In this document: positions 1,426-33,828 of the stretch, piece by piece
Position numbering within the stretch: position 1 is the stretch's first letter
Layout of the letters: the number at the start of each line of letters is the position of its first letter
Virus record (IMG/VR): IMGVR_UViG_3300044630_003130
Coordinates: 1-34,649 of that record
Origin: a virus
DNA: 34,649 bases
Strand: one strand, 5' to 3'
The notes under the pieces: model-generated
Databases searched by the model: none
Told to the model about the DNA's origin: nothing
The model's input: the letters and a program-made list of their open reading frames with translations, nothing else
Translations under genes and position numbers: made by a program

Positions 1426-1430
1426 AAATT

Positions 1431-2312: not shown

Positions 2313-2318
2313 AAAACT

Positions 2319-3137: not shown

Positions 3138-3139
3138 TT

Positions 3140-3595: not shown

Positions 3596-4056
3596 ATTGG
3601 GAAGTAAAAAATTATGGTGGATACCCAACAACAAATGAAAGTAAAAAGTATGCAATTTTTATTGGTAGATTCCAACCACCACATTTTGGACATTTGGAAT
3701 TGTTTGAGCAAAAATTAAATCAAGGTATTCCAGTTTTAATTATGGTTAGAGATATTGAACCAGACGAAAAAAATCCTTTTACAACAGAACAAACAGTAAC
3801 CCTATTGGAAAAATACTATTCAAATAAAAATTTTGATGTAAAGATAATGATTATTCCAGATATTGAGTCGGTAAACTTTGGTCGTGGTGTGGGATATGAA
3901 ATTAATGAATTTATTCCACCAAAAGAAATCGGTGGAATATCGGCAACAGGAATTAGAAATTCAATTAAAAATGGTGACGACTATTGGAAAAAAATGATTG
4001 ATGAGTCAATCCAAGAAGATGTTATAAACTATTTAAATTATGAAAACAGAGAGTAA
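3592..4056 (+). CDS. HxGH-family nucleotidyltransferase (NMN adenylyltransferase-like)
   Basis: This 154-residue protein has the two signatures of the cytidylyltransferase-like superfamily: GRFQPPHFGH (25-34), with the HxGH ATP-binding motif, and ISATGIR (116-122), the second phosphate-binding motif. ENPFT-like KNPFTTEQ (60-67) resembles archaeal-type NMN adenylyltransferases (NadM), so NAD synthesis is one candidate job. It overlaps the APS kinase by four bases and the next gene by 17. That placement raises the alternative that it activates a sugar- or sulfate-related precursor for the surrounding pathway. It lacks the extra domains of classical ATP sulfurylase. Superfamily is certain; substrate is open. 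Confidence 0.75.
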   Translation: MNWEVKNYGGYPTTNESKKYAIFIGRFQPPHFGHLELFEQKLNQGIPVLIMVRDIEPDEKNPFTTEQTVTLLEKYYSNKNFDVKIMIIPDIESVNFGRGVGYEINEFIPPKEIGGISATGIRNSIKNGDDYWKKMIDESIQEDVINYLNYENRE

Positions 4057-8000: not shown

Positions 8001-9035
8001 TTCAACACTGGTGATAAAAATAAACTATTATCAATTACAAGTTGGGGTCCAGATTTTAGATTGGGTAATAGTGGAAGTTATTTCTATGGTTGTGGTAATT
8101 TAGATTTAAGTGGTGTTTCAGATATTTTAGATTTAACCGGTACATCTATTTTAGATTCAGCATTTCAAAACTGTGGTACAACAAATGTTAATAATATGAA
8201 TTTGTGGGATACATCAAATGTCACAAGTATGATCAGTACATTTGAGTCGGCTTCAAATTTTAATGAAAATATATCTTCTTGGGACACATCATCCGTTACA
8301 ACTATGTTTAATGCTTTCAAAGGCGCAACAAACTTTAACCAACCAATTGGAACTTGGGATACGTCTTCTGTTTTAAGTATGAATAGTATGTTCCAGAGTG
8401 CATTATCATTTAACCAGCCAATCGGAACTTGGGATACATCTTCTGTTACAACTATGAATGGTATGTTCCAAAATGCGACATCATTCAACCAACCAATTGG
8501 AACTTGGGTTACATCTTCTGTTACAAATATGAGTACTATGTTTAATGGTGCAACAAGCTTTAACCAACCAATTGGGACTTGGGACACATCTTTAGTTACA
8601 ATTACGTCTGGTATGTTCCAAAATGCGACATCATTCAATCAACCAATTGGGACATGGGTTACATCTTCTGTTGTAAATATGGCTAGTATGTTTAGACTAG
8701 CAACATCATTCAATCAACCAATTGGGACATGGGTCACATCTTCCGTTACAAATATGAATAGTATGTTTAATGGTGCAACATCATTTAATCAGGATTTAGG
8801 TACTTGGGATGTCACATCATTAACAACTGCCACACTTATGTTTGCAACTGTAACACTTTCAACCCCAAATTATAATTCGTTACTTAATGGTTGGGCGTCA
8901 TATGGTGGTGCATTACAATCTGGTGTTCCATTTAATGCTGGTAATTCTGTATATACAATTGCAACAGCAGGTGTGTCAAGAGGGTTTTTAACAACAACAA
9001 AATTGTGGACAATCACAGATGGTGGTGGAATTTAA
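5019..9035 (+). CDS. Large modular adhesin: Pro/Thr linkers plus three PKD-like/BspA-like (DUF285) modules
   Basis: This 1338-residue protein is built of repeats. Residues 1-72 form an N-terminal domain like that of the previous gene. Pro-Thr linkers at about 74-93 and 164-176 flank a small Cys-containing domain. Three homologous modules follow, beginning near residues 190, 510 and 928. Each starts with a PKD-like beta domain (a YNF-x-x-x-W-G-D motif, then DTITVWND and HTY) and an RLGN-x-x-x-YF-x-GC segment. Each then runs into 25-residue BspA-like repeats of the form [20 protein letters not shown]. DUF285 repeats are known from bacterial surface lipoproteins and adhesins. In a phage structural region the likely role is host binding (tail fibre or decoration). 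No signal peptide or transmembrane anchor is seen, which fits a virion protein better than a host-exported one. Confidence 0.8.
7083..7604 (+). repeat. 75-bp tandem repeats (second DUF285 array)
   Basis: Seven consecutive units beginning TTTAA(C/T)CAACCAATTGGA encode 25-residue FNQPIG(T/A)W repeats. All are 75 bp except one of 72 bp starting at 7233. The units are close to identical at the DNA level. Confidence 0.9.
8334..8858 (+). repeat. 75-bp tandem repeats (third DUF285 array)
   Basis: Seven 75-bp units start at 8334, 8409, 8484, 8559, 8634, 8709 and 8784. Six encode FNQPIGTW; the last is degenerate (FNQDLGTW). Some units share long identical runs with those at 7083-7604. Confidence 0.9.
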
Positions 9036-9062: not shown

Positions 9063-9084
9063 CATTTTATAAAACTATAAAATG
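9063..9084 (+). promoter_or_regulatory. Perfect inverted repeat containing a start codon
   Basis: CATTTTAT (9063-9070), a six-base loop (AAAACT) and ATAAAATG (9077-9084) can form an 8-bp hairpin. The ATG of the next gene (9082-9084) is inside the right arm. It may modulate initiation, but in such AT-rich DNA it could be fortuitous. Confidence 0.35.
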
Positions 9085-10326
9085 AATACAATCTTTGTTC
9101 AAATAGCATCCTTTAGAGACCCCCAACTTATTCCAACATTAGAAGATATGATTGCAAACGCAAAGTATCCAGAAAACTTGCGAATAGGAATTTGTAATCA
9201 GTATAACACAGAAGATGAATTTAATTTAGATAAATTCAGAGACGATGATAGATTTAGAATTGATAATGTCTTAGACACAGAATCAAAAGGTGTTTGTTGG
9301 GCAAGACATATGGTACAACAAAGATATAGCGGAGAAACTTATACATTACAGATTGATTCTCATATGCGTTTTGAAAAAGATTGGGATAAAACTTTAATTA
9401 AAATGTTAAAGGATTTACAAAAGAAAGGTTATAAAAAACCATTACTTACTGGTTATGTATCTTCTTTTGATCCAGACAATGACCCAAAAGGAAGAGTAAC
9501 GGAACCTTGGAGAATGGCTTTTGATAGATTTACACCGGAAGGTTGTGTTTTCTTTTTACCAGAAACAATACCGGGATGGAAAGATTTAAAGGAACCAATA
9601 ACTGCCAGATTTTATTCGGCACATTTTTGTTTTACATTAGGTGAGTTTTCAATTGAGGTTCAACACGATCCAGAATATTATTTTCACGGAGAAGAAATCT
9701 CAATTGCTGTTAGAGCATACACATATGGTTATGATTTATTTCACCCACATAAAGTTGTTATTTGGCATGAATATACAAGAAAGAATAGAACAAAACATTG
9801 GGATGTTGATTCAGAGTGGTATAAGAAAAATGAGTCATCACATAAAAGAAATAGAGAGTTATTGGGTGTTGATGGTTTGGTATTTTCTGGTGATAGTTCA
9901 TTATATTTTGGAACCGAAAGAACAATTAAAGATTATGAAAAGTATTCCGGAATCCTTTTTGAGAAAAGAGCCGTACAACAATATACAATAGATAAACAAT
10001 ATCCACCAAATCCATACGATTATAAAACAGAAGAAGAATGGAGAGATAGTTTCCTTTCAATATTCAAACATTGTATTGACCTTTCATTTGATATGGTTAA
10101 AGAAACTGATTATGATTTTTGGGTTGTTGCATTTCATAATGAAAAAGATGAAACATTATTTAGAAAAGACGCGGACCCAAATGAAATTGCAATGATGAAA
10201 AGGGATCCGGATAGATATTGTAAAATATGGAGAGAATTTAATACAACGGAAAAACCGAAGTATTGGGTGGTTTGGCCACATAGTACATCAAAAGGTTGGT
10301 GTGATAGAATAACTGGAAATTTATGA
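9082..10326 (+). CDS. GT60-like N-acetylglucosaminyltransferase (Skp1/mucin-type)
   Basis: This 414-residue protein matches the eukaryote-like GT60 group of GlcNAc transferases. It starts IFVQIASFRDPQLIPTLEDM (4-23), the family's 'iFVsIaSYRDpel..Tl..l' opening. CWARHMVQQRY (72-82) and LQIDSHMRFEKDWD (89-102) carry the modified DxD metal site (D92-S-H94). HGEE (202-205) and VIWHEY (226-231) are later conserved positions. Characterised GT60 enzymes are soluble and attach alpha-GlcNAc to hydroxyproline of Skp1 or to Thr of mucins. Downstream of a Pro/Thr-rich adhesin, that linker is an obvious candidate acceptor (inference). The gene is coupled to the next by an ATGA overlap. Confidence 0.78.
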   Translation: MNTIFVQIASFRDPQLIPTLEDMIANAKYPENLRIGICNQYNTEDEFNLDKFRDDDRFRIDNVLDTESKGVCWARHMVQQRYSGETYTLQIDSHMRFEKDWDKTLIKMLKDLQKKGYKKPLLTGYVSSFDPDNDPKGRVTEPWRMAFDRFTPEGCVFFLPETIPGWKDLKEPITARFYSAHFCFTLGEFSIEVQHDPEYYFHGEEISIAVRAYTYGYDLFHPHKVVIWHEYTRKNRTKHWDVDSEWYKKNESSHKRNRELLGVDGLVFSGDSSLYFGTERTIKDYEKYSGILFEKRAVQQYTIDKQYPPNPYDYKTEEEWRDSFLSIFKHCIDLSFDMVKETDYDFWVVAFHNEKDETLFRKDADPNEIAMMKRDPDRYCKIWREFNTTEKPKYWVVWPHSTSKGWCDRITGNL

Positions 10327-11027
10327 TAAAATTTAAAGATATTAAAATTGCTGATATTGGATTTTACATTAACCTAGACAAAAGAAAAGATAGGGAAGAA
10401 AAAATTGAGTCACAACTAAAAGAATTTAATTTTTCTGGTGTTGAGAGATTTTCGGCATTTAATGAATATGATGCAAATACTCTTAATTGTAAAAAAAGTC
10501 ACATAATTTTAATGAAAAAGTTACTTGATAGTAATTTTGAAACTTTATTGGTTTTGGAGGATGATTGTAAATTTTTAGATATTTTAAAGAATCAAGGTGA
10601 AAAAGTTTTTAATGATATTAATAATACTGATTGGGATTTATTTTGGTTAGGGTGTAGAAACAGAAAAGAACCAATAATATATAAAAATAATTGTTACCAA
10701 GTTTCATCAGTTTCATATTCACAATCTTATTTAATAAAACGAAATATGTGTGAATTTATTGTGAATAATTTTGATAATGAAAATTTTTTTAAACAACCTG
10801 TAACACCTGATGAATTATTAACATTATCACCATATGGTGCTGATGTTGTTTTAAATTCAGAAAAATATAATTTTTATAATTTAGAACAACCATTAAATTC
10901 TTTACCAACAATTTTTAAACATCTATGTTATAAGAAACCACTAACAACACAATACGCTTCATATAGTGATATATGGAACTCAGAAATTAATTACGAAGAT
11001 TATATAAAAAAAGGTTTCCCAAAATAA
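10323..11027 (+). CDS. Glycosyltransferase family 25
   Basis: The 234-residue product shows the family 25 pattern: FYINLDKRKDREEKI near the N-terminus (14-28; INLD-x-R-x-x-R is the hallmark), CKKSHIILMKKLL (56-68), and LLVLEDD (75-81), whose acidic cluster plays the DxD role. Family 25 enzymes include LPS galactosyltransferases and collagen hydroxylysine galactosyltransferases. The first codons overlap the stop of the GT60-like gene by four bases, so the two are translationally coupled and probably act on the same acceptor. The C-terminal SLPTIFKH stretch is also typical of the family. Sugar specificity cannot be read from the sequence. Confidence 0.85.
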   Translation: MIKFKDIKIADIGFYINLDKRKDREEKIESQLKEFNFSGVERFSAFNEYDANTLNCKKSHIILMKKLLDSNFETLLVLEDDCKFLDILKNQGEKVFNDINNTDWDLFWLGCRNRKEPIIYKNNCYQVSSVSYSQSYLIKRNMCEFIVNNFDNENFFKQPVTPDELLTLSPYGADVVLNSEKYNFYNLEQPLNSLPTIFKHLCYKKPLTTQYASYSDIWNSEINYEDYIKKGFPK

Positions 11028-11037
11028 AAAAATAATT

Positions 11038-11667
11038 ATGAAATTTGAAAATAAAATAAGTAAAAAATCAAACTTAATTGAAAATGATAGTTTGTCCATT
11101 TATAATAACTGGGCTGCCCAGCAAAACTGGAATGCTTTTGAGGTTTTCCATAATTTTTTAGAAAAAGTCAAACCAAAAAGAATAATTGAGATTGGGACTT
11201 CTCTTGGTGGTTTTACATCTTTTTTAAACTATACTTGTAAAAAATTAAATTTAGATTGTCACATTTTATCATATGATATTATAACACATCATTGGTATGA
11301 TGAAATGAGAAAAAATGGTATTGATTTGAGGATTGAAAATATATTTTACAATAATTACACTACAACAAAAAAAGAAGTTATTGATTTTATCCAGAAAGAT
11401 GGTTTGACATTAATATTGTGCGACGGTGGTGATAAAATAAAAGAGTTCAACCTACTTTCAAAATATATGAAAAAAGGTGATTTTATAATGACACACGATT
11501 ATGTTGAAACCAAAGAAAAATTTGATAATGAAATCTATTTAAAAATTTGGAATTGGCATGAAGTTTCCGAATCCGATTTACAAAAAGCATGTGAAGAAAA
11601 TGGTTTAATATCATATGATAAAGAAATATTTGATAATGTTGTTTGGGTTTGTAAAATTAAAAAATGA
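11038..11667 (+). CDS. Class I SAM-dependent methyltransferase (CmcI/Methyltransf_24-like)
   Basis: The protein has 209 residues. RIIEIGTSLGGFTSFL (48-63) is the SAM-binding glycine-rich loop with its acidic start. SYD (78-80) ends the second strand. LILCDGGD (125-132) and GDFIMTHDY are the later core strands and the metal/SAM-side motif of CmcI-like O-methyltransferases. In glycan clusters such proteins often O-methylate sugars; here it lies between GT25 and a two-domain transferase, so sugar methylation is the best guess. The next gene overlaps by ATGA. The class is clear, the substrate is not. Confidence 0.8.
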   Translation: MKFENKISKKSNLIENDSLSIYNNWAAQQNWNAFEVFHNFLEKVKPKRIIEIGTSLGGFTSFLNYTCKKLNLDCHILSYDIITHHWYDEMRKNGIDLRIENIFYNNYTTTKKEVIDFIQKDGLTLILCDGGDKIKEFNLLSKYMKKGDFIMTHDYVETKEKFDNEIYLKIWNWHEVSESDLQKACEENGLISYDKEIFDNVVWVCKIKK

Positions 11668-13334
11668 ATAATTTAACATTAGTAACAGGTTTATGGGATA
11701 TAGGTAGGGGAGAACTATCTGACGGATGGTCAAGATCTTTTGACCATTATCTTGAGAATTTTTCAAAACTATTAAAGGTTGAGAACAATATGATAATTTT
11801 TGGTGACCAAAGATTAAAAGAGTTTGTTTTCAAATATAGGACAGAAGAAAATACACAATTTATTTTAAGAGATTTAAATTGGTTTAAAAATAATGAGTTT
11901 TATGATTTAATCCAAAAAGTTAGAACAAATTCTTCTTGGTATAATCAAGTTGGCTGGTTAAGAGAATCAACACAGGCAAGACTTGAGATGTATAATCCTC
12001 TTGTTATGTCAAAGATGTTTTTATTACACGACGCAAAACTTTTAGATAAGTTTAATTCAAAATTATTATACTGGATTGATGCCGGACTTGTAAATACAGT
12101 TCATCCAGGATATTTTACACACGACAAAGTTTTAGATAAGGTACCAAAGTTATTTAACAAATTTACATTTGTTTGTTTTCCATATAATGCTGACACAGAA
12201 GTTCACGGATTTAAATATGATAAGATGTGTGAACTTGCAAATAAGAAAACAGAAGTTGTTGCTCGTGGAGGATTTTTTGGTGGAGATAAAGATTCAATAG
12301 CTCAGATGAATGTTCTTTATTATAACTTGATGCTGGAAACATTAAAATCTGGTTTAATGGGAACCGAAGAATCTTTATTCACAATCTTACTTTATCAACA
12401 TCCATCAATTATTGATTATGTTGAAATTGAATCAAATGGTTTACTATATAAGTTTTTTGAAGATTTAAAAAATAACCAAGTATTAATAAAATCACAAGGA
12501 AAAAAGATTGTTCAAAATTATAATGGTGATGTTGGTCTTTATGTAATTACATTTAACTCACCAAAACAATTTGAAACCTTAATTAAATCAATGTTAGATT
12601 ATGATTCAGATTTTATTCATAAAACAAAAAAGTTTCTTCTTGACAACTCAACGGATTTAACAACAACGCCTTTATATCTAAAACTATGTGAGGAATATAA
12701 ATTTGAGCATATTAAAAAGAATAACATTGGTATTACCGGTGGTAGACAATTTATTGCAGAACATTTTAATGACCAAGAAAATCTTTCACATTACTACTTC
12801 TACGAAGATGATATGAATTTTTACAACGGAAAAGATATTACTTGTAAAAATGGTTTTATAAGAAAGATTGATAATTTATATCAAAAAAGTTTAGAAATAA
12901 TAAAAAAGGAAAATTTTGATTTTTTAAAATTAAATTTCACAGAGTTTTATGGTTCACACAACAAACAATGGTCGTGGTATAATGTAAGTCAAGAATTTAG
13001 AAAAAGTCATTGGCCAAACAATCAAACGTTGCCAAAACAAGGTCTTGACCCAAATTCGCCAAACTTAGAATTTAAACATATACAATCACATAAAGGACTT
13101 CCTTATGTATCCGGAGAAATATATTTATCCAATTGGCCAATTCTTATGACAAAAGAAGGAAACTATAATTGTTATATTAAAACAAAGTTCCAACATCCAT
13201 ATGAACAGACCTTGATGTCAAATTGTTATCAAGAAACAATTAAAGGAAATGTTAATCCAGGATTACTTCTTGCAACACCAACAGAACACAATCGTTTTGA
13301 ATTTTATGATGGATCTTTAAGAAAAGAATGTTAA
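11664..13334 (+). CDS. HtrL/YibB-type protein fused to a GT2-like glycosyltransferase
   Basis: The 556-residue product has two parts. Residues 1 to about 280 match the HtrL/YibB (WlaTC) family. Features are LVTGLWDIGRG near the N-terminus (6-16), NNMIIFGDQRLKEFV, the central YWIDAG (136-141), and a C-terminal ARGGFFGG and GTEES region. Residues 291-556 are a second nucleotide-sugar-transferase-like domain starting GLYVITFNSPKQFETLIKS. It contains YFYEDDMNF (378-386), where EDD is the likely metal site as in GT2 enzymes. YibB-like proteins are usually single-domain. The gene is coupled to the methyltransferase by ATGA and closes the second glycan operon. A promoter box follows directly after its stop. 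Confidence 0.75.
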   Translation: MNNLTLVTGLWDIGRGELSDGWSRSFDHYLENFSKLLKVENNMIIFGDQRLKEFVFKYRTEENTQFILRDLNWFKNNEFYDLIQKVRTNSSWYNQVGWLRESTQARLEMYNPLVMSKMFLLHDAKLLDKFNSKLLYWIDAGLVNTVHPGYFTHDKVLDKVPKLFNKFTFVCFPYNADTEVHGFKYDKMCELANKKTEVVARGGFFGGDKDSIAQMNVLYYNLMLETLKSGLMGTEESLFTILLYQHPSIIDYVEIESNGLLYKFFEDLKNNQVLIKSQGKKIVQNYNGDVGLYVITFNSPKQFETLIKSMLDYDSDFIHKTKKFLLDNSTDLTTTPLYLKLCEEYKFEHIKKNNIGITGGRQFIAEHFNDQENLSHYYFYEDDMNFYNGKDITCKNGFIRKIDNLYQKSLEIIKKENFDFLKLNFTEFYGSHNKQWSWYNVSQEFRKSHWPNNQTLPKQGLDPNSPNLEFKHIQSHKGLPYVSGEIYLSNWPILMTKEGNYNCYIKTKFQHPYEQTLMSNCYQETIKGNVNPGLLLATPTEHNRFEFYDGSLRKEC

Positions 13335-21649: not shown

Positions 21650-21990
21650 TAATTACCCTCAACAAATTGAAATTGTACACATGCTCCCTTTTCTAAAAGA
21701 AGTTCATCCCACTCCTCATCAATTGAGCCAGTGTCGGATTTAATTAAAGTTTGTGTAAGAGATTTTACTGTAATTTTTTTTACAATAGAAGAATTTAATG
21801 TTACTTCAGAATACTCAACACCCCTAACAATTAAAAATGTTTCATCGTTAGTTGTATAGACAGATTCGGATATTATTTTATGAACCTCAACCGGTTTCTC
21901 AATAATAACTTTTGGCTCAACAATAGTTTGTGTTGTATATTTTACAACATTTTTTCTTTGTGTTAAATTATCAAATCTTACTCCACTCAT
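21613..21990 (-). CDS. Small protein of unknown function downstream of the gp13-like gene
   Basis: I do not recognise this 125-residue product. Residues 1-35 are polar with many Thr/Val/Lys (NVVKYTTQTIVEPKVIIEKP). The middle alternates hydrophobic and polar residues as in a beta sandwich (ETFLIVRGVEYSEVTLN). It ends EKGACVQFQFVEGNYYIISS, the kind of terminal strand pair seen in small phage capsid or fibre domains. Its start shares one base with the stop of the gp13-like gene (TAATG on the minus strand), so the two are coupled and it is probably virion-related. Its 3' end overlaps the convergent DNA polymerase gene by 37 bases. No membrane segment or catalytic motif is visible. Confidence 0.6.
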   Translation of the reverse strand: MSGVRFDNLTQRKNVVKYTTQTIVEPKVIIEKPVEVHKIISESVYTTNDETFLIVRGVEYSEVTLNSSIVKKITVKSLTQTLIKSDTGSIDEEWDELLLEKGACVQFQFVEGNYYIISSDGLKTS

Positions 21991-23120
21991 TAGATTACAT
22001 ATATTTGTCTAGGCATCGCTCTAAACTTGAGCTGTTTATTTAAATTCTCAGCAATTAAAGCTTCTCTTTCCATTACCTTTTCTGGTTTAAGACGAGTTAA
22101 TCTTCCTTCAGCACCGATTAGTTCCTCAATTAATTTTGTCTTTTCATCTTTTGCTTCAGTTGCTAATGACTGATAATCTAATGTTAAATCAGCGTCTGGT
22201 GTTTTTAGATTACCACTATATTTTCCTCTTACTTTTGATAAAGTTTCTTTACAGTATGCAATAAACCATCTTCTAACCCAAATTTGTGCTGGGTTATTTA
22301 ATTCATACCAACTGATTTTATCAAATGGAACATCAGATGGAAGTTTAACTATTTCTGGATTATTTTTTAAACATTTATCTCTATCTTCTGGACCAACATC
22401 ATAATACCAATACCAAACTTTACCTCTACTTAATGTACCATTACCAAAATCAAATTTACCACCAGGTGTGTTCATTAGGTGAATTGCTTTCTTACCATCA
22501 GGAAGTGCGGTTATTTTATATGTTAAATCACCAGCAATAATTCTTCTTTGAATGTTAATCTCTTGCATTCTTAATAACATATCAAATGCTGGCATCATAA
22601 AATAAGAACCGGCCATATTACCACCCATTTGAGCTAAGCCACCGCCACCACCAAGACCACCACCATATCCTAATGAACCGAATGACCACGGGTCAAACAT
22701 TGTGTTGTTTAGTGTTGGTGGGGTAAACCATAATAACTCATTAATTTCCCTATTTGCCGGGATTTCATAAATTTGTTGTTTAGGGACTAATTGTATATAA
22801 TCTTTTTTTAATACATAATCACCACCAGCTTGTAACCCAACAATTTTTGAATAAGCGTAAGTATATCTTGTTTCGTAATCTAAACTTTTTGTTGTGAAAG
22901 CTTTTGCTAATGATTGTGTGTCCAGATTTAAATTATTTAGAGCAGTCCATTGTGACTCAATTAACCAATCTTGTACATATTGTGAATACTCATCAATTGA
23001 AAATTCAAGTAATGTATCCATTTGTTCATCTTCAAGCTCAACAGATCTTAAAGGTGCACCAAGTAAGTGTCTAATCTTTGTGTAAAGTTGACTTCTTTCG
23101 GGTTCATTGATTATTGACAT
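21990..23120 (-). CDS. T4 gp13-like neck/connector protein
   Basis: The 376-residue protein opens with an acidic helical region (LEDEQMDTLLEFSIDEYSQY, residues 28-47) like the 'ML..a...YtEy' start of T4-type gp13 neck proteins. A YEIPANREINELLWFTP strand follows. A glycine-rich stretch (GYGGGLGGGGGLAQMGGNMA) lies roughly at residues 150-170. The C-terminal half contains WVRRWFIAYCKETLSKVRGK followed by LKTPDADLTLDYQSL and a charged helix, the same order as the 'a.ik..wg.nl.kf.....pgG..l.g..l..ea' region of gp13. The role would be joining portal and tail at the neck. gp14- and gp15-like genes a few kilobases away support this. Assignment is from pattern memory, so moderate. Confidence 0.6.
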   Translation of the reverse strand: MSIINEPERSQLYTKIRHLLGAPLRSVELEDEQMDTLLEFSIDEYSQYVQDWLIESQWTALNNLNLDTQSLAKAFTTKSLDYETRYTYAYSKIVGLQAGGDYVLKKDYIQLVPKQQIYEIPANREINELLWFTPPTLNNTMFDPWSFGSLGYGGGLGGGGGLAQMGGNMAGSYFMMPAFDMLLRMQEINIQRRIIAGDLTYKITALPDGKKAIHLMNTPGGKFDFGNGTLSRGKVWYWYYDVGPEDRDKCLKNNPEIVKLPSDVPFDKISWYELNNPAQIWVRRWFIAYCKETLSKVRGKYSGNLKTPDADLTLDYQSLATEAKDEKTKLIEELIGAEGRLTRLKPEKVMEREALIAENLNKQLKFRAMPRQIYVI

Positions 23121-23142: not shown

Positions 23143-25239
23143 TCAAGCTCTTGGAATTGTTAATCTTTTAAGATCAAATTTAAACCTTTCATTTTTTGAT
23201 AAATCTCTAATAATATCTTGTGGTATATTATCACCAAGTCTTAATACGCCGTACTTTTCACCCAATGAATTAAATAAACTAACAACTTCTTTGGTCTTAT
23301 CATCACCAATCAAAAATTGTTTATATTGGTCTACTGTTACACTTGGGAATTTAATGGCTCCTGACATTGTTTTATCCATTTTTAATATTTTTGTTGAAAG
23401 TGATATTGTTTGTGCTTCTTTTGTTCTACCAGCTTTTAATAAATTTGGCGTTTTAATAAGTTCAATAATTCTATTTTTATCATAGTAGTATAAATCAACA
23501 CTCATATTTTTTTGATTTGGGACCCCAACAAGTAATCCTGTTATATCCGTAAGTAAAAAACTTAATAAATCTTCGGCCTGATTTCTTAAATCTTGATTTT
23601 CGTGATTAATTAAAAGCTCAAGAAAGTTTGGGTATTGACTCAATTCAATTAATTTATTTTTATTTTCTTGAGAACCATTATATCCTGACACAAATATACC
23701 AACAGATTTTCTAATACTTTTAAGTGAAATTCTTTCACCAGTATTTCTAATAATCTTACAAGAAAGTTTGTCACCTTGTTTTGTTAAAACATCAAAAGGT
23801 GAAGACAAGCTAGTTGCTAAAGTGGCATCAAGAAAACCAGTAACCATTCCCTCAAAATCAAAACCTCTCGTTTTACTTTTAACAAATCTTTGGAAATAAT
23901 TATTAAATCTATATTTTGATCTTTCAGAAACGGTATTTAAATCAAGTGTCATTAATCCTTGTACAGTCCTATTAAAATTAATATTACCCCTCTCAATTTC
24001 GGCACTTGTAATATTGTTTATTGCTTCCGCCGCAGCTTCAGCATCCAAAGGAATAAGACGAATTTTTTGTAATTCTCTAGACATAACTTTTTTAAGTTCT
24101 TGATCAAGTTCTTCATTTTCAACAAGTAATCTGTTTATTGATTCGGTTAATTTCTTTTTTGATTTTGTTATATACAAATCATTAACAAAATCCCAATTTA
24201 CATAATCCCAGAAATTTTTAATGTAAGCGTCTCTTTTATTTTTAAATTTTAAATAATAGGCATGTTCCCATAAATCAAGACCAAGTAATGGATAACCACC
24301 ACTATTAATAACATTCATTAATGGATTGTCTTGGTTTGGTGTTGACATAATTTTTAAGTTGTTTGATTTTGTTAATACCAACCAAACCCAACCGGAACCA
24401 AAACTATCTTTTGCCACTTCATTAAATTCGTTTTTCATTTTTTGTATGTTCCCATACTGTTTTTTTATTTTGTCAAGAATTTCACCTTTTGGTAATTGTT
24501 TTTTTGGGGAAAGCATTTTCCAAAATAAAGCGTGGTTAAAAGCACCACCAGCATTATTCCTTACAGTTTTGTCAAATTTACTTATTGATTTTATAATATC
24601 TTCAAGGTCTTCGTATTTAAAATTTGTACTACTTAGAGCTTTGTTTAATTTTTTAACATAACCTTTGTAATGTTTGTTGTAATGAATATTCATAGTATCA
24701 CTACCAACAAATTTATTTAAAGCAGAATAAGAATATGGTAATTTCTCAATTCCAATTCTTTTCATTTCAGTTATTAATTGTTTTTCTTGATTTTTAATTT
24801 CAGTTAAAAGTATTTCTTCTTTTAATACATTTAGTTTTCTATTTAAACCTTCATACATCATTTCTTCTTTTTGTGGGAATTTTTTCTCAAATTTTTTAAT
24901 TAATTGTCCTGCAAAAGCATTTGCCTCATCTTCGTTTTTCCCACCAATATCCGGACCTCTTCTTCTTTTTAAAATATCTCTTTGATAGTCGTGAACCCAC
25001 TCGTGTGCCAAAGTTCTTAACACATCTCTATTTATTCTGTTTTTACTTAAAACTTTAATATGTCTTAACTTAACATTATGACTACCACTTGTCATATGAC
25101 CAACTCTTTCAGGTACAAAAGAAATTGTAATATCTTCTTTTAATGGATATTCTTTTTGTAGGAAATGTATGAATTTTTTATAAAATTCTTTATCCTCTTT
25201 TGTAATACTACTATCTTTAAATCCTAATTTTACTTTCAT
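23143..25239 (-). CDS. Metallopeptidase - Fe/Mn superoxide dismutase - unknown domain fusion
   Basis: The protein has 698 residues in three parts. (1) Residues 1-120: a zinc-peptidase-like domain with LAHEWVHDYQ (H79, E80, H83) and EDEANAFAGQLI (third ligand E103 or E105), resembling the ImmA/IrrE-type HExxH...EAN.FA arrangement. (2) Residues 167-360: a complete Fe/Mn superoxide dismutase, with LPYSYSALNKF, all four metal ligands (H186, H236, D322, H326) and the hallmark LDLWEHAYYL and NFWDYVNW. (3) Residues 380-698: an unrecognised domain. The linkers around the SOD (LLTEIKN, LITEMKR; LTESINRLLVEN) contain L/I-x-E sites like those cut by T4-type prohead protease. SOD removes superoxide, so it could protect virion or infected cell. 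The start follows a promoter box only 6 bases upstream, implying a nearly leaderless mRNA. Confidence 0.85.
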   Translation of the reverse strand: MKVKLGFKDSSITKEDKEFYKKFIHFLQKEYPLKEDITISFVPERVGHMTSGSHNVKLRHIKVLSKNRINRDVLRTLAHEWVHDYQRDILKRRRGPDIGGKNEDEANAFAGQLIKKFEKKFPQKEEMMYEGLNRKLNVLKEEILLTEIKNQEKQLITEMKRIGIEKLPYSYSALNKFVGSDTMNIHYNKHYKGYVKKLNKALSSTNFKYEDLEDIIKSISKFDKTVRNNAGGAFNHALFWKMLSPKKQLPKGEILDKIKKQYGNIQKMKNEFNEVAKDSFGSGWVWLVLTKSNNLKIMSTPNQDNPLMNVINSGGYPLLGLDLWEHAYYLKFKNKRDAYIKNFWDYVNWDFVNDLYITKSKKKLTESINRLLVENEELDQELKKVMSRELQKIRLIPLDAEAAAEAINNITSAEIERGNINFNRTVQGLMTLDLNTVSERSKYRFNNYFQRFVKSKTRGFDFEGMVTGFLDATLATSLSSPFDVLTKQGDKLSCKIIRNTGERISLKSIRKSVGIFVSGYNGSQENKNKLIELSQYPNFLELLINHENQDLRNQAEDLLSFLLTDITGLLVGVPNQKNMSVDLYYYDKNRIIELIKTPNLLKAGRTKEAQTISLSTKILKMDKTMSGAIKFPSVTVDQYKQFLIGDDKTKEVVSLFNSLGEKYGVLRLGDNIPQDIIRDLSKNERFKFDLKRLTIPRA

Positions 25240-25292: not shown

Positions 25293-27053
25293 TTATTTTC
25301 TTTTATTAATTAGATTAAGAATTTCTTCTACGACATCAACGGATTCCGAAACCTCATCACCCATTACAGTACCAATAATTTTCTTTTTTGTGTTTAATAT
25401 ATCATATATTACACCCTCAATTGTGTTTTCAAAGATTGGGTAATAAACTAAAACATTATTTTTCTGACCATATCGGTAAGCTCTATCTTCAGCTTGTGCG
25501 TGTTCTGCCGGAACAAAAGATAAGTCATTCATAATTACAACTTCAGCTGATGTTAAAGTAAGACCAACACCGGCCGCTTTTAAGTTCCCAACAAATACTT
25601 TTATTTTTTCATTGTCCTGGAATTGGTCAACAGCGTATTGTCTTTGAACTTTATTACAACTACCATCTAAATAAACAGCTTCCTTACCAAAATGACTATA
25701 AATTGTTTGTAGTGTATCTGTAAAGTTTGTAAAAATAATAACTTTTTTTCCTTGATCTATAATGTTTTGTGCGAACTCAATTGTTTCTTTTGATTTTTCA
25801 TTTGCAATCACTTTTCTTACTTTCATTAGTTTTGAAAACTGAACGGTAAGTGATGATGATTCTTCTTTTTTATTTTCTAACCATTCGTAGTATTCGCCCA
25901 TCAAATCTTTATAATCTTTTGATGAGGTTCTTAAATAAACCGGTGTAATAATCTTGTCCGGTAAATCAAGGACATCTTCTTTTAATCTACGAAGAATTTG
26001 TGAAGATGTTCGGTCTCGTAGTTCTTCCAAGTTTGACGCACCAGTAACATTCCATACCTTTCTATTTCCAGCTCTAAATTGGTACCCTTGACAATAACGA
26101 ATAGCATAAGCCATCCAGTTTTGTGCAACCGGGCTTTCAATTATATTTAAAAGATTATAGTAATTCATTGGTCGAGATGTCATTGGGGTTCCGGTTAATA
26201 ACCAAACTCTTTTAACATCTTTTACAAAATTATTTATGATTTTTGTTCTTTGAGCTTGAGCATTTGAAATCATATGGGCCTCATCCAATATTACTAATTC
26301 AAATCCGGACTTAACAAGCAATGAATTTTCTTTACCTTTTGGGTCGTGAAAGTTTTTTAATATGTCGTAATTTACAATAACAAAATCGTGTTCAGTTGAA
26401 AATTTTTTACCTTCAGCAATATATACGGTTCTATCTGAATAATTTGCAATTTCTCTTTCCCAATTTATCTTAAGTGATGCTGGACAAATAATCAAAATCT
26501 TTTTTGCTCCAGTTTCAAGAGCAGCAATGATTGTTGATGTTGTTTTACCAAGACCCATATCATCAGCTAGAATAAATCTTTTTGACCCAACAAGTTTTTC
26601 AACAGCTTCTTTTTGGTGTGAGAGTGGTGGTCTATGTTCATATTTAGAATAATCAACATCAACTTTCTCAACTGAATGTGTTTTAATTAAAGATGATTTT
26701 GGAACCCAAAATTCAGATAAAACATCTTTCTCAAAAAATTTTCCCCAAATGTGATATGATTTATCTTTTTCAACCAGTAGTTTTTCAATGTAAACTTTTT
26801 CTGGGGTTTCAAGTAAGTATCTTTCTGTTGCGAACTTTTTTGCAAAGTAAGTATCAAGAAAAACCCACTTACGAGCAACCTTTGGTTTTGTGTCAAAATA
26901 ATTAACAATGTAATCTGCTTGAGTCCTTGTTGGGTAAAACTTTTTGTTTGTTTCTTTTTTTGTTTTCATATAAAGGATATAGTTGTTAGCCCCGCTATAT
27001 GAGTCTAACAATTCCAAAGCCTTTTGTTCTATTATTTGTTTTTGAATTTCCAA
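25293..27053 (-). CDS. SNF2-family (SMARCAL1/UvsW-like) DNA helicase/translocase
   Basis: The product has 586 residues from a TTG start at 27053. It has the two RecA-like lobes of a superfamily 2 SNF2 ATPase: DDMGLGKT (Walker A, 164-171), ICPASLKINWERE (motif Ia), DEAH (257-260), LLTGTP (motif III), KVIIFTNFTDT (motif IV), and GVGLTLTSAEVV with AEDRAYRYGQ (motifs V-VI). The ~140-residue N-terminus may be a HARP-like or DNA-binding part. It probably acts in fork remodelling or recombination, as UvsW does in T4. Start choice: the open frame reaches a TTG at 27080, but the promoter box covers 27064-27070. The in-frame TTG at 27053 sits 10 bases past the box, and coding-like sequence (LELLDSYSGANNYIL) begins after it. 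The first ATG (26969) would lose that segment. Confidence 0.88.
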   Translation of the reverse strand: MEIQKQIIEQKALELLDSYSGANNYILYMKTKKETNKKFYPTRTQADYIVNYFDTKPKVARKWVFLDTYFAKKFATERYLLETPEKVYIEKLLVEKDKSYHIWGKFFEKDVLSEFWVPKSSLIKTHSVEKVDVDYSKYEHRPPLSHQKEAVEKLVGSKRFILADDMGLGKTTSTIIAALETGAKKILIICPASLKINWEREIANYSDRTVYIAEGKKFSTEHDFVIVNYDILKNFHDPKGKENSLLVKSGFELVILDEAHMISNAQAQRTKIINNFVKDVKRVWLLTGTPMTSRPMNYYNLLNIIESPVAQNWMAYAIRYCQGYQFRAGNRKVWNVTGASNLEELRDRTSSQILRRLKEDVLDLPDKIITPVYLRTSSKDYKDLMGEYYEWLENKKEESSSLTVQFSKLMKVRKVIANEKSKETIEFAQNIIDQGKKVIIFTNFTDTLQTIYSHFGKEAVYLDGSCNKVQRQYAVDQFQDNEKIKVFVGNLKAAGVGLTLTSAEVVIMNDLSFVPAEHAQAEDRAYRYGQKNNVLVYYPIFENTIEGVIYDILNTKKKIIGTVMGDEVSESVDVVEEILNLINKRK

Positions 27054-27063
27054 AATTATAGTT

Positions 27064-27070
27064 ATAAATA
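27064..27070 (-). promoter_or_regulatory. Putative phage promoter box TATTTAT (minus strand, helicase)
   Basis: Minus-strand TTTTTATTTATAACTATAA precedes the proposed TTG start of the helicase by 10 bases. It faces away from two plus-strand boxes at 27090 and 27147, forming a divergent promoter region. Confidence 0.5.
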
Positions 27071-27089
27071 AAAATAACAATAAAAAGAA

Positions 27090-27184: not shown

Positions 27185-27550
27185 ATGAAAAGAATAGTTA
27201 GATTAAACGAAAGAGATTTAACAAGAATTGTTAAAAGAGTTATTAATGAAAATAAAGAATATCACGAAGAAGAAATAACAACGCCAGAAGCACCAGATGT
27301 TATTGCACTTGGTGAGTCACCAAGATGGACTATCAAACCAAAACACAGTGATATTGGTGTTTACGCTTTTGTTGAAGAAACAGAAAAGGGTTTAGTATTA
27401 TATAAAGGTTTGTCAATTGGGGCTTATTTTACACCAACAAAAATAGATTCAATTGAGGACGGTTTACTTTTGGCACAAGAAGAACACGATAAAAGACAAA
27501 AACGCTATAAAGAAAGAGAAGGAAAACCCTTTAAAGGTTTTGAATGGTAA
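27185..27550 (+). CDS. Small protein with basic amphipathic N-terminal tag (possible capsid cargo)
   Basis: The protein has 121 residues. The N-terminus (MKRIVRLNERDLTRIVKRVI, then NE at 21-22) is a basic amphipathic helix ending in I-N-E. This recalls the capsid-targeting peptides of T4 internal proteins, which prohead protease removes at L/I-x-E sites. An acidic linker (EYHEEE) follows. Residues about 35-121 then form a small compact domain: RWTIKPKHSDIGVYAFVEET, a GLVLYKGLSIGAYFTP strand pair, and a basic C-terminus (KRQKRYKEREGKPFKGFEW). I do not recognise the domain. It has its own promoter box and a strong terminator, so it is a single-gene unit. Delivery with the DNA is inference. Confidence 0.6.
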   Translation: MKRIVRLNERDLTRIVKRVINENKEYHEEEITTPEAPDVIALGESPRWTIKPKHSDIGVYAFVEETEKGLVLYKGLSIGAYFTPTKIDSIEDGLLLAQEEHDKRQKRYKEREGKPFKGFEW

Positions 27551-29445: not shown

Positions 29446-32400
29446 ATGGCAACAAACAGTAAAGTATTTGTATCACCAGGTGTCTATACTTCGGAAGTTG
29501 ATTTGAGTTTTGTAGCACAAAGTGTTGGTGTAACCACATTGGGTATTGCGGGGGAGACATTAAAAGGCCCTGCTTTTGAACCAATCTTTGTAAAAAGCTA
29601 CGACGAATTTCAGAGCTACTTCGGCGGTACTTCACCAGAAAAATTTGTGAATACTCAAATCCCAAAGTACGAAGCTGCGTATATCGCAAAATCTTACTTA
29701 CAACAATCAAGTCAATTATTTGTTACAAGAATATTGGGACTATCAGGTTATGATGCTGGCCCGTCTTGGTCAATTGTAACACAAGCGAATGTAGACCCAA
29801 CAACTATTGGTGTATGGTGTTTAGACCCAACGGTTGTTAATTGTGAACCAGCTTGTAATCAACCATATGAAATAACATTTGCTGTTGATTTTACAGGTTG
29901 TACAAGTGGCATTCAATCAATTTCATTTCCAGATCTTGATCAATTTCCAGATGAAATAAAAAACATTTTAACAGAACAATACGAAACATTTAATGGTTCT
30001 TTAAGTACACTTGATGATAATATCAAATCATTAGTTTTTAGTGTTTTAAATTCTAGTAATATTAATGCGGAAAACGAAACAATTAGTTATTTTGGTTCAG
30101 TAGATGGTGCTGATTATAGCGGTTTAACAAATGCCGGTTTTACAGCGCAAACTAATGTATTTCAAGTGCCTGCGGTTCCGTTAGATCAAACAGATTTAAC
30201 ATCACCATTTAATGATCCTTGGTATTATGCATTATTTGATAATAATGGTGGTGGCGCTTATAGTGGTTTTTCATTTTGGTCAATTGTAAGTGGTTTAACT
30301 TTTATTAACCCTGTTGTTACAAGTACTACAACATTACCAATAACACCTACACCGACACCAACTCCGGTAAACCCTTGTGTTACACCACAACCGTTTGTGT
30401 CACCAACACCGACACCAACTCCGGTAAATGTTGATTGTTATTCTGGACAAGTAGTTGGTAGAATTTATTACTATACAGGAACATCATATACTGATTATGA
30501 TAATTTAGTGGTTGCAACATTGAGATCTAGAGGTATTGCGAATTATTCAGATTCAAATAACCCTGTTTATGAAATTAGTGATATTACTAAAGTAACATTA
30601 AATATGAGTGGTGAATATTCTGGTGTTGCGAAAAATCCATATCTACCATTTGTTATTAATGCAACAAATGATTTAGGTACTGATTTCACTTTTGAAACAT
30701 CATTTAGTATTTCTGATGCTCAATACATTTCAAAAGTATTTGGGTCAAGTAATTTTGGTAAACCAAGAAATGTTAACCCATTGTTCTTAGAAGAAAGATT
30801 CCAATCATTATTAAATTATGCTTGGAGAAAAGGTTATATTAGAGGTTTATCATCACAAATTGTAGCGCTTGATTCAGCACAAAGTGGTGAAAGTGATTCT
30901 ATTGGGTGGTATTTAGATAGATACCAATCACCAGCATCACCTTGGGTTGTATCTGAATTAAGAGGTTCTAAAGTATTTAACTTATTTAAGTTTTATACAA
31001 TATCTGATGGTAATTCAGCAAACACAGAAGTTAAACTTTCAATTGCTGATATTTCATTTGCTAATCAAACATTTACTGTTTTAGTTAGAGATTATTATGA
31101 CACCGATTCAAACCCAATTGTAATTGAGAAATTTACAAATTGTTCTATGGATCCTTCACAAAATAATTTTATTGCTAAGAAAATTGGTACATTAGATGGT
31201 GAATATGAATTGAAATCTAAATACGTTATGGTTGAAATGAATGAGGATGCACCAGTTGATGCACTTCCTTGTGGGTTTGATGGTTATGTAATTAGACAAT
31301 ATGATGGTGTTGTATCTCCATTCCCAATTTATAAAACTAAATATGATTTCCCTGGTGAAATTATTTATAATCCACCATTTGGATTCTCAACAGGAGCTGA
31401 TGACGCTTTAATATCTGGTGGAGATAATATTAGAAGAACATATTTAGGTCTTGGTTCATTCTGGGGATTTGATTCAAGTTTCTTTGAATACAAAGGAAAA
31501 AGAAATCCAATTTCTACTTGTGATATAGATGGATTTGATTGGAATACAAAAACAAGAGGATACCATATGGATAGAAACGCTAGTGGTATTACAATTAGTG
31601 GTCCATTTACAACAAGTGGTACACCAAGATTCTATGTTGGTAATGCACCATTTAGTTCTGAACCGACTCTTGATACTAACCCATATTACAGATTATTTGC
31701 TCGTAAGTTTACTTTGTTTGTTCAAGGTGGATTTGACGGATGGGACATTTATAGAGAATATAGAACTAACGGTGATAGATATACATTAGGTCGTCAAGGA
31801 TTCCTTAATGGAGCTTGTCCTACTGATAGATACCCAAATGCTAGTGGATGGGGTGCATTTAAACAAATTGCAATTGGTGATGGAACAAGAGATTGGGGTA
31901 ACACTGACTACTACGCTTATTTATTAGGTATTAGATCATTTGCAAACCCAGAGGCTGTAAATATCAATGTGTTTGTAACACCAGGTATTGATGTTCAAAA
32001 CAATTCTGATTTAGTTGAAAATACAATTGATATGATTGAAAATGAAAGAGCTGACTCATTGTATATTACAACATTACCGGACTATAACTTATTCTTACCA
32101 ACAACAACTGGAACCGATGGTTTAATTTACCCACAAGAAGCTGTTGACATATTGGAAGAAACAGGAATTGATTCTAACTATACTGCAACATATTACCCTT
32201 GGGTATTAACAAGAGATAGTGTAAACAATACACAAATCTATATTCCAGCAACAGCTGAAGTTACAAGAAACTTAGCACTTACTGATAATATAGCATTCCC
32301 TTGGTTCGCAGCTGCTGGTTATACTCGTGGTATTGTTAATTCAATTAAAGCTCGTAAAAAGTTGACACAAGAAGATAGAGATACTTTATATATTGGTAGA

Positions 32401-32793
32401 GTTAATCCAATTGCAACATTTGCTGACGTAGGTACTGTAATCTGGGGTAACAAAACTCTTCAAGTTAGAGAATCTGCCCTTGACAGAATCAACGTAAGAA
32501 GGTTGTTATTGCAAGCAAGAAAATTAATTTCTGCTGTATCTGTAAGATTGTTATTTGACCAAAACGACGAACAAGTAAGACAAGACTTCTTAAACGCTGT
32601 TAATCCAATCTTGGATGCAATTAGAAGAGATAGAGGTTTATACGATTTCCGAGTAACTGTTTCAAGTGATACGGAAGACTTAGATAAAAACCAATTAGTT
32701 GGTAAAATCTATATCAAACCAACAAGGTCTCTTGAATTTATTGACATTACATTCTACATTACACCAACCGGTGCTTCATTTGAAGATGTGTGA
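29446..32793 (+). CDS. Contractile tail sheath protein (T4 gp18-type) with a large insertion
   Basis: The protein has 1115 residues, against 659 in T4 gp18. The N-terminus (VFVSPGVYTSEVDLSFVAQS, residues 7-26, then TTLGIAGETLKGPAFEPIFV and SYDEFQSYFGG) is the standard sheath opening. The C-terminus (AAAGYTRGIVNS, INVRRLLLQARKLISAVSVRLLF, and a final GKIYIKPTRSLEFIDITFYI) is the conserved sheath core that packs on the tube and joins neighbouring subunits. The ~450 extra residues lie in the surface-exposed middle. They include a PTPTPTPVNPC...SPTPTPTPVNVDC linker at about 299-326, the same mucin-like composition as the adhesins at 4513-9035. It is the main late product, with its own promoter box and terminator. 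Sheath identity is firm. Confidence 0.95.
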   Translation: MATNSKVFVSPGVYTSEVDLSFVAQSVGVTTLGIAGETLKGPAFEPIFVKSYDEFQSYFGGTSPEKFVNTQIPKYEAAYIAKSYLQQSSQLFVTRILGLSGYDAGPSWSIVTQANVDPTTIGVWCLDPTVVNCEPACNQPYEITFAVDFTGCTSGIQSISFPDLDQFPDEIKNILTEQYETFNGSLSTLDDNIKSLVFSVLNSSNINAENETISYFGSVDGADYSGLTNAGFTAQTNVFQVPAVPLDQTDLTSPFNDPWYYALFDNNGGGAYSGFSFWSIVSGLTFINPVVTSTTTLPITPTPTPTPVNPCVTPQPFVSPTPTPTPVNVDCYSGQVVGRIYYYTGTSYTDYDNLVVATLRSRGIANYSDSNNPVYEISDITKVTLNMSGEYSGVAKNPYLPFVINATNDLGTDFTFETSFSISDAQYISKVFGSSNFGKPRNVNPLFLEERFQSLLNYAWRKGYIRGLSSQIVALDSAQSGESDSIGWYLDRYQSPASPWVVSELRGSKVFNLFKFYTISDGNSANTEVKLSIADISFANQTFTVLVRDYYDTDSNPIVIEKFTNCSMDPSQNNFIAKKIGTLDGEYELKSKYVMVEMNEDAPVDALPCGFDGYVIRQYDGVVSPFPIYKTKYDFPGEIIYNPPFGFSTGADDALISGGDNIRRTYLGLGSFWGFDSSFFEYKGKRNPISTCDIDGFDWNTKTRGYHMDRNASGITISGPFTTSGTPRFYVGNAPFSSEPTLDTNPYYRLFARKFTLFVQGGFDGWDIYREYRTNGDRYTLGRQGFLNGACPTDRYPNASGWGAFKQIAIGDGTRDWGNTDYYAYLLGIRSFANPEAVNINVFVTPGIDVQNNSDLVENTIDMIENERADSLYITTLPDYNLFLPTTTGTDGLIYPQEAVDILEETGIDSNYTATYYPWVLTRDSVNNTQIYIPATAEVTRNLALTDNIAFPWFAAAGYTRGIVNSIKARKKLTQEDRDTLYIGRVNPIATFADVGTVIWGNKTLQVRESALDRINVRRLLLQARKLISAVSVRLLFDQNDEQVRQDFLNAVNPILDAIRRDRGLYDFRVTVSSDTEDLDKNQLVGKIYIKPTRSLEFIDITFYITPTGASFEDV

Positions 32794-32862: not shown

Positions 32863-33828
32863 ATGAATTACAAAATTTTAGTTAGACAGATTATAAAAGA
32901 AATGGTAGAGAAAAAAAATCTACGTTTGTATGGTTTTGATTGGGATGATAATATTTTGAGAATGCCAACTAAAATATATTTAAAATCTGACCTTGGGGAT
33001 GTTATTGGAATGTCAACAGAAGATTTTGCGGAATATAGACATTTAATTGGAAACGAACCTTTTGATTATGAAGGGGACACAATAGTTGGATATGACAACA
33101 ATCCATATAGAGATTTTACAAGTTCCGAAACATTTTTAGAAGACACAAAAGAAGCAATTAGAAAAGACAGAAAATCACCAAGTTTTAAAAAGTTTAAAGA
33201 AAATTTAATATATGCTAACCCATTTTCAATTATTACCGCTAGAGGACATAGTCCAAATGTAATTAAAAAAGGTGTTAAAATGTTTATACATTTAGTTTTG
33301 TCACCAGAAGAAAAAGAAGAAATGGTGGAGAATATTAAAAATACTTTTGAACACGAAGAAATGTTTTCAAAAAACTTTTTAGAAAAATTAGATGATTTAT
33401 CCCCAAATCAATTATTAGATTTTTATTTAGATGAGAGAGGGGATTACTACCCAGTTTCTTCAAAAGAGTTTGGTGAAAAATTCGGATTAGAGACAAGTGG
33501 TGGGGCTGCAAATCCTGAGCACGCAAAAAAAATTGCCCTTGCCGATTTCATTTCAAAATATGATGATTTAATTAAAAGTGGAAAATATATTAATACTTCA
33601 TTAGGATTTTCAGATGATGACCCAAGAAATATAAAAGCAATGGTTGAGTATGTAAAAAATGAACTATCAAGAATGTATCCAGAAGTAAAATTTATAATTT
33701 ATGATACATCAGAAGGAGGATATTCAAAAATTCATATAGAAACTGGAAATGAAAAAGAAGAAAGTGAAGAAGAACTTATGTTAGAAAGTTTAATTAATAG
33801 GATAATATCCAAAATTAAATCAAAGTAA
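32863..33828 (+). CDS. HAD-superfamily phosphatase-like protein with terminal tags
   Basis: The protein has 321 residues. HAD motifs are visible: GFDWDDN (24-30) is motif I with the nucleophile Asp and the acid Asp two residues later. SIITARG (122-128) is motif II (Thr, plus Arg of the type seen in polynucleotide-phosphatase-like members). K223/K224 are candidates for motif III. FSDDDPRN (249-256) is the acidic motif IV. A large helical insertion (about 80-220) separates them. The N-terminus (MNYKILVRQIIKEMVEKKN) and the C-terminus (LMLESLINRIISKIKSK, 305-321) are basic amphipathic helices resembling the tag on the 27185 protein. It may be a packaged enzyme acting on nucleotides or nucleic-acid ends; the substrate is unknown. 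It is a single-gene unit between sheath and tube. Confidence 0.75.
   Translation: MNYKILVRQIIKEMVEKKNLRLYGFDWDDNILRMPTKIYLKSDLGDVIGMSTEDFAEYRHLIGNEPFDYEGDTIVGYDNNPYRDFTSSETFLEDTKEAIRKDRKSPSFKKFKENLIYANPFSIITARGHSPNVIKKGVKMFIHLVLSPEEKEEMVENIKNTFEHEEMFSKNFLEKLDDLSPNQLLDFYLDERGDYYPVSSKEFGEKFGLETSGGAANPEHAKKIALADFISKYDDLIKSGKYINTSLGFSDDDPRNIKAMVEYVKNELSRMYPEVKFIIYDTSEGGYSKIHIETGNEKEESEEELMLESLINRIISKIKSK

Follow-up and report, generated by a model that had tools for sequence, protein, structure and literature searches.

A 34,649-nt stretch of virus DNA (IMG/VR record IMGVR_UViG_3300044630_003130, positions 1 to 34,649, called here the window) carries a gene whose predicted product joins a zincin-fold domain, a superoxide dismutase (SOD) and a restriction-endonuclease-fold domain in a single chain. 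The joints between these units carry conserved [LI]xE sites of the gp21 type, which are the new element of the finding. We estimate a probability of roughly 60% that the product is a capsid-cargo polyprotein of a T4-like phage, which is packaged and then cut by the prohead protease gp21.

The open reading frame encodes 698 amino acids from an ATG start without interruption. Pfam, applied to the whole protein, recovers two SOD domains and nothing else, and a PHROGs search assigned the 698-aa protein to no family. The features of the locus are as follows.

23143..25239, minus strand: candidate zincin-SOD-nuclease-fold polyprotein gene (ORF, Pfam, homologues, census)
24856..25239, minus strand: unit 1, predicted zincin-fold domain, residues 1-128 (59-sequence alignment, model, PDB zincin matches)
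24991..25005, minus strand: HEWVH zinc/catalytic motif, residues 79-83 (alignment; residue 82 variable among relatives)
24919..24936, minus strand: NEDEAN, residues 102-107 (EDEAN invariant in 59 zincin domains)
24766..24855, minus strand: linker 1, residues 129-158, with proposed cleavage sites LKE141, LTE147 and ITE158 (conservation, shuffles)
24166..24765, minus strand: unit 2, Mn-type Fe/Mn superoxide dismutase by sequence, residues 159-358 (Pfam, PDB, ligand alignment)
24100..24165, minus strand: linker 2, residues 359-380, KKLTESINRLLVEN, with proposed cleavage sites LTE366 and LVE374 (conservation, shuffles, low-confidence model stretch)
23146..24099, minus strand: unit 3, predicted restriction-endonuclease-fold domain, residues 381-698 (model, structure matches)
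23755..23793, minus strand: presumed nuclease centre D483-x9-S493-x-K495 (D, S and K invariant in 21 sequences)
21990..23120, minus strand: neck gene downstream, head-tail adaptor Ad2-like (PHROG 211, E 5.6e-11)
25293..27080, minus strand: SNF2-type helicase gene upstream (domain and family searches; conserved neighbour)
27185..27550, plus strand: small neighbour protein with N-terminal tag MKRIVRLNERDLTRIVKRVINEN (read from the translation; tag class shared with a relative's proteome)
32863..33828, plus strand: neighbour with tag-like N-terminus MNYKILVRQIIKEM (read from the translation)

Relatives were found at 26 loci in IMG/VR, several of them full-length, and the intact full-length homologues are 62-100% identical. 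Scans returned 32 relatives of the third domain, 404 of the zincin, 147 of the C2 tail (C1 to C4 denote tails after SOD) and at least 587 of the SOD; the kept loci hold the best 80 each of the zincin, C2-tail and SOD relatives. ORFs were taken from a simple ATG-based script. The kept loci contain 160 distinct ORFs, whose intact forms include zincin-SOD-C1 (28), zincin-SOD-C2 (39), zincin-SOD (38), zincin-SOD-C4 (8), zincin alone (8), SOD-C3 (6), SOD-C2-C2 (3) and SOD-C2 (1), with cut ORFs and nuclease-alone ORFs making up the rest; because loci were fetched by similarity to the polyprotein's own domains and the best 80 selected, these counts are not frequencies. The parts are modular: relatives carry the zincin alone, zincin-SOD, SOD-nuclease or the nuclease alone. 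By BLAST, the tails after SOD fall into three unrelated clusters. Low dN/dS values throughout, measured for five pairs (SOD, 0.07-0.23; third domain, 0.10-0.27; zincin, 0.29-0.48), indicate that selection keeps all three parts.

The gene context is also conserved. The kept loci hold 125 distinct intact SOD ORFs, a count that excludes cut ORFs. Of these, 124 have the neck gene as a neighbour and 123 the helicase gene; in 122 the arrangement is complete and all on one strand, with the helicase upstream of the SOD ORF and the neck gene downstream of it. No capsid genes, including gp21 and gp23, were seen within the 34.6-kb window, and a scan of the region for promoters and terminators gave results at chance level.

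Unit 2, to judge by its sequence, is a complete SOD of the Fe/Mn family with all ligand residues intact. The metal ligands are H186, H236, D322 and H326, and their columns are invariant in 49 phage SODs. Both Pfam domains are recovered, Sod_Fe_N at residues 165-244 (E 6.4e-23, 81.5 bits against a cut-off of 27) and Sod_Fe_C at residues 250-354 (E 4.1e-38, 130 bits against a cut-off of 20.9). A Gly and a Gln (alignment positions G87 and Q158), a pair that we take to mark the Mn type of SOD, are invariant in the same 49 proteins and are suggestive of Mn as the metal. The best PDB match is 6gsc (E 4.5e-72), and the closest solved structures are bacterial-type SODs. Among the best 80 of at least 587 relatives, the best bacterial match has 49% identity and lies in a Ferruginibacter MAG, and the genome matches are mostly titled Bacteroidota. 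These Bacteroidota Mn/Fe SODs belong to the same family and have all ligands, but the matches listed are confined to the SOD part. Pseudomonas phages PA5oct, MIJ3 and Callisto, GenBank phages in which the SOD part was matched (28% identity), likewise have an SOD in a large phage, although the similarity there is limited to the SOD. Beyond the SOD, GenBank phages gave weak matches only: to the zincin in Synechococcus phages S-SRM01 and B23, and to unit 3 once.

Unit 1 is predicted to adopt a zincin fold. Alignment of 59 zincin domains reveals that H79, E80, W81, H83 and the EDEAN box are invariant; H79, E80 and H83 form the HExxH motif of zincin metallopeptidases. E103 is invariant at x19 spacing from this motif. 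The spacing HExxH-x19-E is of the thermolysin type, and on this basis E103 is presumed to be the third zinc ligand, as in gluzincins. A model of unit 1 with linker 1 has a mean pLDDT of 87.6. With this model, Foldseek found the M61 peptidase 7xyo at a probability of 1.00, but with an E value of 8.3e-3, and VIA-align found the YbeY-type structure 1oz9 (Z 10.6, rmsd 2.5 over 107 residues), the M30 peptidase lugdulysin (Z 10.2) and M1 peptidases (Z 8-10). In sequence searches with the zincin, PDB sequence profiles yielded no convincing match (best E 0.6). Pfam returned weak names only: of the 59 members, 38 matched DUF6055 (E 9.5e-5 at best) and 28 matched SprT-like (E 0.0018 at best). A scan of bacterial and archaeal genomes for the zincin produced 86 pattern matches and zero relatives.

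Approximately 340 residues lie C-terminal of the SOD. A model that covers the SOD end, linker 2 and unit 3 has a mean pLDDT of 83.9, and the best Foldseek match of unit 3 is HinP1I (E 3.2e-3, probability 0.99), followed by Eco15I, NhoI and PvuII. VIA-align matched the unit 3 model to Eco15I with a Z of 8.4 (rmsd 4.2, 127 aligned), which is barely above the tool's own noise of 7-8; the weight therefore rests on agreement among the leading structure matches, all of which are restriction enzymes. The modelled unit shares the fold of HinP1I, Eco15I, NhoI and PvuII, but sequence similarity to them is not detectable. The canonical (D/E)xK is absent; its place is taken by S493-C-K495, with the Ser invariant in 21 sequences. 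Because this Ser replaces the expected acid, we file unit 3 under the restriction-endonuclease fold and not as a canonical PD-(D/E)XK member. The sister tail family C2 has an invariant Asp and QVK. In searches with unit 3, the best PDB sequence-profile match was an unrelated methyltransferase (E 0.012), and Pfam gave nothing meaningful. Unit 3 is presumably a nuclease.

The first-pass annotation, which was made from the sequence alone, had described a zinc-peptidase-like domain with HEWVH and EDEAN, a complete SOD with four metal ligands, and more than 300 residues of an "unknown" third domain. Its account of the front part agrees with the invariant residues and the modelled zincin fold, its SOD is confirmed by the ligands and both Pfam domains, and its estimate of length fits the count. 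Structure prediction, which it had suggested and which was run on parts of the protein, yielded the zincin fold in front and the restriction-endonuclease fold behind the SOD, so the label "unknown" gives way to a match with type II restriction endonucleases.

The T4 protease gp21 cuts after L/I-X-E (PMC9026906). In the protein described here, [LI]xE sites lie, by sequence, at the joints between units. Conservation is high in linker 1 (E141 in 100%, E147 in 82% and E158 in 100% of 28 full-length homologues) and in linker 2 (E366 in 86% and E374 in 93%), and the sole other [LI]xE site conserved in at least 60% of these homologues (82%) is the SOD ligand motif DLWEH. Per 100 amino acids, the two linkers contain 10.5 and 8.4 such sites in the 28 homologues, compared with 0.5-0.8 in the domains and 1.5 in the proteomes of two relatives. 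Because the linkers are rich in L and E, composition shuffles were run. Linker 1 has 3.11 sites where shuffling gives 1.54 (largest shuffle 2.19), and linker 2 has 1.85 where shuffling gives 0.72 (largest shuffle 1.19). Linker 2 is a low-confidence stretch in the model.

The paired sites after SOD recur in front of other tails: in 97% and 100% of proteins with C2 tails (n=39), both in 100% with C3 tails (n=6), and in 62% and 88% with C4 tails (n=8). In each of these three groups, sites after SOD are more numerous than in any composition shuffle; six long-tailed proteins whose tail belongs to no recognised type have 1.33 sites against 0.54, a count that only equals the largest shuffle. An [LIVM]xE[SN] site is found at most 22 residues past the SOD in 41 of 47 distinct long-tailed proteins, and 15 distinct zincin-SOD proteins that have no tail terminate just before that position. 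Two distinct homologues (L079 and L080) are missing the LxE[SN] site after SOD. A stricter two-site form is present at 31 of 46 junctions but in only 1.6% of 16,259 internal windows from two relatives; because the sequences are related, such counts show conservation and are not independent trials. At the other joint, standalone zincins have MYE or MYD at or very near their C-terminus, which is the point where linker 1 starts in fused forms, and one of them (L121) extends a few residues past this point.

Similar stretches occur as N-terminal tags elsewhere in related genomes. In a 257-kb relative, G001, many N-termini are tagged (for example, MKKVIRLTESDLTRIVKRVINE, MNLQESIRRILREE and MKKFIITEAEKSRILGMH). 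In G001, 18 of 268 N-termini bear the stricter two-site tag (shuffled mean 3.4, maximum 10), and in a second relative 23 of 287 do (shuffled mean 3.0, maximum 8). A loose N-terminal criterion takes in 63 of 269 and 72 of 288 proteins of two relatives (~24%), and a loose tag regex gave 70 matches, mostly not N-terminal, vs 41 after shuffling; the concentration at N-termini is seen in the stricter forms only. All 12 distinct standalone nuclease-domain ORFs (two pairs of which are near-duplicates; a fragment from locus L007 was dropped ahead of the count) start with a two-site tag, compared with the 63 of 269 and 72 of 288 proteins that fit the loose criterion. Eight of nine SOD-first proteins start with a tag-like stretch, and the ninth has no detectable upstream Met. 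The zincin-first protein has no N-terminal targeting propeptide, and its tag-like stretches are internal. An ORF of G001 at 87190-88128 is a two-unit fusion: it starts with MNLQESIRRILREE and carries MNLQESIRRILKEE, including Met, near residue 200. It lies in a locus (83916-88128 of G001) where seven ORFs of 77-312 aa, this fusion among them, have a common start, MNLQE[SN]I[RK][RK][IV]L, and are otherwise different; they likely form a tagged-cargo family.

Components of the T4 prohead are also present in relatives: gp21 in 4 of 12 records and gp23 in 5 of 12. One of these gp21 genes lies at 11778-12563 of L041. No gp21 was found in the other 8 of the 12 records, one of which is 274 kb long. 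Two relatives' gp23 proteins have HLINE/ATSEG and YLINE/ATSDA at the expected position, and this LINE/A context is presumably where T4 gp23 is cut. The isolates nearest by gp23 include Flavobacterium phage immuto. This fact, coupled with the mostly Bacteroidota origin of the nearest bacterial SODs, suggests that the host of this large, apparently T4-like phage probably belongs to the Bacteroidota. Phage immuto itself has its own DLKKFLVENKLTxNSKILKE-type tag (LxEN...LKE) in three proteins (L182 7631-8931, L183 1803-2318), and a literature search found no paper naming this phage.

These observations are most simply accounted for by the following scheme. Three enzymes, a zincin metallopeptidase, a Mn-type SOD and a nuclease of restriction-endonuclease fold, would be made as one chain, with linkers that supply both capsid-targeting-like amphipathic stretches and gp21-type L/I-x-E sites. 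Once inside the prohead scaffold core, the chain would be cut by gp21 after E141/E147/E158 and E366/E374, and separate enzymes of ~16-18, 24-25 and 37 kDa would be left beside the DNA. At infection, the enzymes would be injected, like T4 Alt and the internal proteins. In the host, the SOD might remove superoxide, the peptidase might act on host proteins, and the nuclease might act on host or rival DNA. Weak points of the cargo reading are that the tag of the zincin-first protein is internal whereas T4 tags are N-terminal, that linker 1 is a stable helix in the model, and that the window is without capsid genes.

The helix of linker 1 also speaks for a different proposal, in which the chain is never cut and acts as a multifunctional enzyme in the infected cell, with SOD protecting late infection, linkers that are ordinary amphipathic helices, and a place next to the neck gene that reflects late expression only. 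Linker 1 is modelled with high confidence as one 32-residue helix, the packing of which could explain the L/E pattern, helical linkers being naturally rich in L and E; and bacterial-type SODs exist as separate genes in other large phages. However, composition does not account for the site counts, which lie above those of the shuffles, and the two-site stretch is present at the N-termini of standalone nucleases and before unrelated tails, whereas 15 distinct zincin-SOD proteins that have no tail lack it after the SOD. We consider an uncut enzyme unlikely. It is less likely still that a virion protein is packaged or attached whole, with linker stretches that dock to scaffold or neck and undergo no cleavage. 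The tag-like stretches and the near-constant neck gene (124 of 125) would suit such a protein, but their ends match the gp21 consensus, and a helix that served only for docking would not require an L/I-x-E pair. The first-pass annotation had proposed virion association from the position beside the neck gene, a position that the PHROG 211 match of 21990-23120 upholds. Such an association is plausible, and the gp21-type sites at the joints favour capsid-internal cargo over a part of the neck.

There is only a negligible chance that separate genes were joined here through an error of assembly or a spurious frameshift. One otherwise full-length homologue does have a frame break within its nuclease domain (L007, near 7806), either real or a sequencing error. 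Against this stand the 28 distinct intact zincin-SOD-C1 ORFs and further fusions (39 with C2 and 8 with C4 tails) from independent virus contigs, and the purifying selection across all three domains. We therefore reject the artefact, and the three-part fusion that had been proposed is genuine. Nor do homologues always encode the parts separately, since many contigs carry the fusion intact and some relatives encode parts singly.

The preferred reading, of capsid cargo cut by gp21, has partial precedents. T4 internal proteins carry N-terminal propeptides of 10-19 residues for targeting into the head (PMC9026906), and packaged, injected enzymes are exemplified by T4 Alt and IPI (PMC9958956, PMC9026906), with the ejection proteins of SPN3US and phiKZ as further precedents (PMC5694885, PMC10052503). 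T4 IPI-IPIII and Alt have in common with the present system L/I-x-E sites, short targeting-like stretches, gp21 and gp23 (here in relatives) and cargo-like enzymes (PMC9026906, PMC9958956). By sequence, L/I-x-E sites lie between the units, just as they lie between propeptide and mature part in T4 internal proteins of the capsid-targeting type. The present protein differs, however, in that its tags are internal and one chain would hold three enzymes; parts of SOD, zincin or nuclease fold were not found described for IPI-IPIII or Alt (PMC9026906, PMC9958956). The phages phiKZ and SPN3US also have large heads with many proteins, several of them cut after a short x-E motif, but the motif is A/S-x-E and mostly long propeptides are removed (PMC5694885, PMC10052503); the word "polyprotein" was not found in PMC10052503.

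Multi-domain cargo that includes peptidase and nuclease domains is a feature of the polyvalent proteins of phages and plasmids, which the predicted polyprotein resembles in this respect. A literature search on phage SODs, prohead polyproteins and capsid-targeting fusions, whose coverage mostly excluded subscription papers, did not find the zincin-SOD-nuclease architecture, in agreement with the first-pass annotation, which knew of no described protein that has it. We know of no earlier case of an SOD delivered inside a phage head. If the proposal is correct, a tailed phage makes the enzymes that it injects as a polyprotein, which its prohead protease processes, and the head delivers SOD alongside a peptidase and an exchangeable nuclease. 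The contents that heads inject would then be directly testable, and packaged proteins of uncultured phages would be recognisable from sequence through their tags and joints.

A broader possibility, which we put at somewhat less than even odds, is that the locus belongs to a general cargo system of large T4-like Bacteroidota phages, in which dozens of proteins per genome would bear capsid-targeting tags drawn from a small set. Because a tag with its protease site would be a self-contained cassette, tagged genes could fuse into polyproteins that are later separated by the prohead protease. The locus would then be an enzyme cassette that delivers a metallopeptidase, an SOD and interchangeable restriction-type nucleases to the host along with the genome.

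Several other ORFs drew attention. On a 281-kb contig (L087, 1947-4957), the C2-type and C1-type nucleases are encoded by two individual genes, each with a tag, that flank a third gene; several genes whose products have MKIIITExQY-type starts come next. A 1340-aa ORF in a capsid gene region (L041 14400-18422), taken for a gp20-like portal, has apparent intein/HNH-type insertions by eye. Within the window, the tail sheath gene (29446-32793) encodes 1115 aa, of which the best sheath match spans residues 896-1112 only; thus, the sheath protein has a very large extra part. A 1338-aa protein (5019-9035) contains many similar short segments and Thr-Pro-rich tracts and matches PHROGs of unknown function. 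Matches to glycosyltransferases, kinases and nucleotidyltransferases (1-4056 and 9082-13334) cluster beside structural genes.
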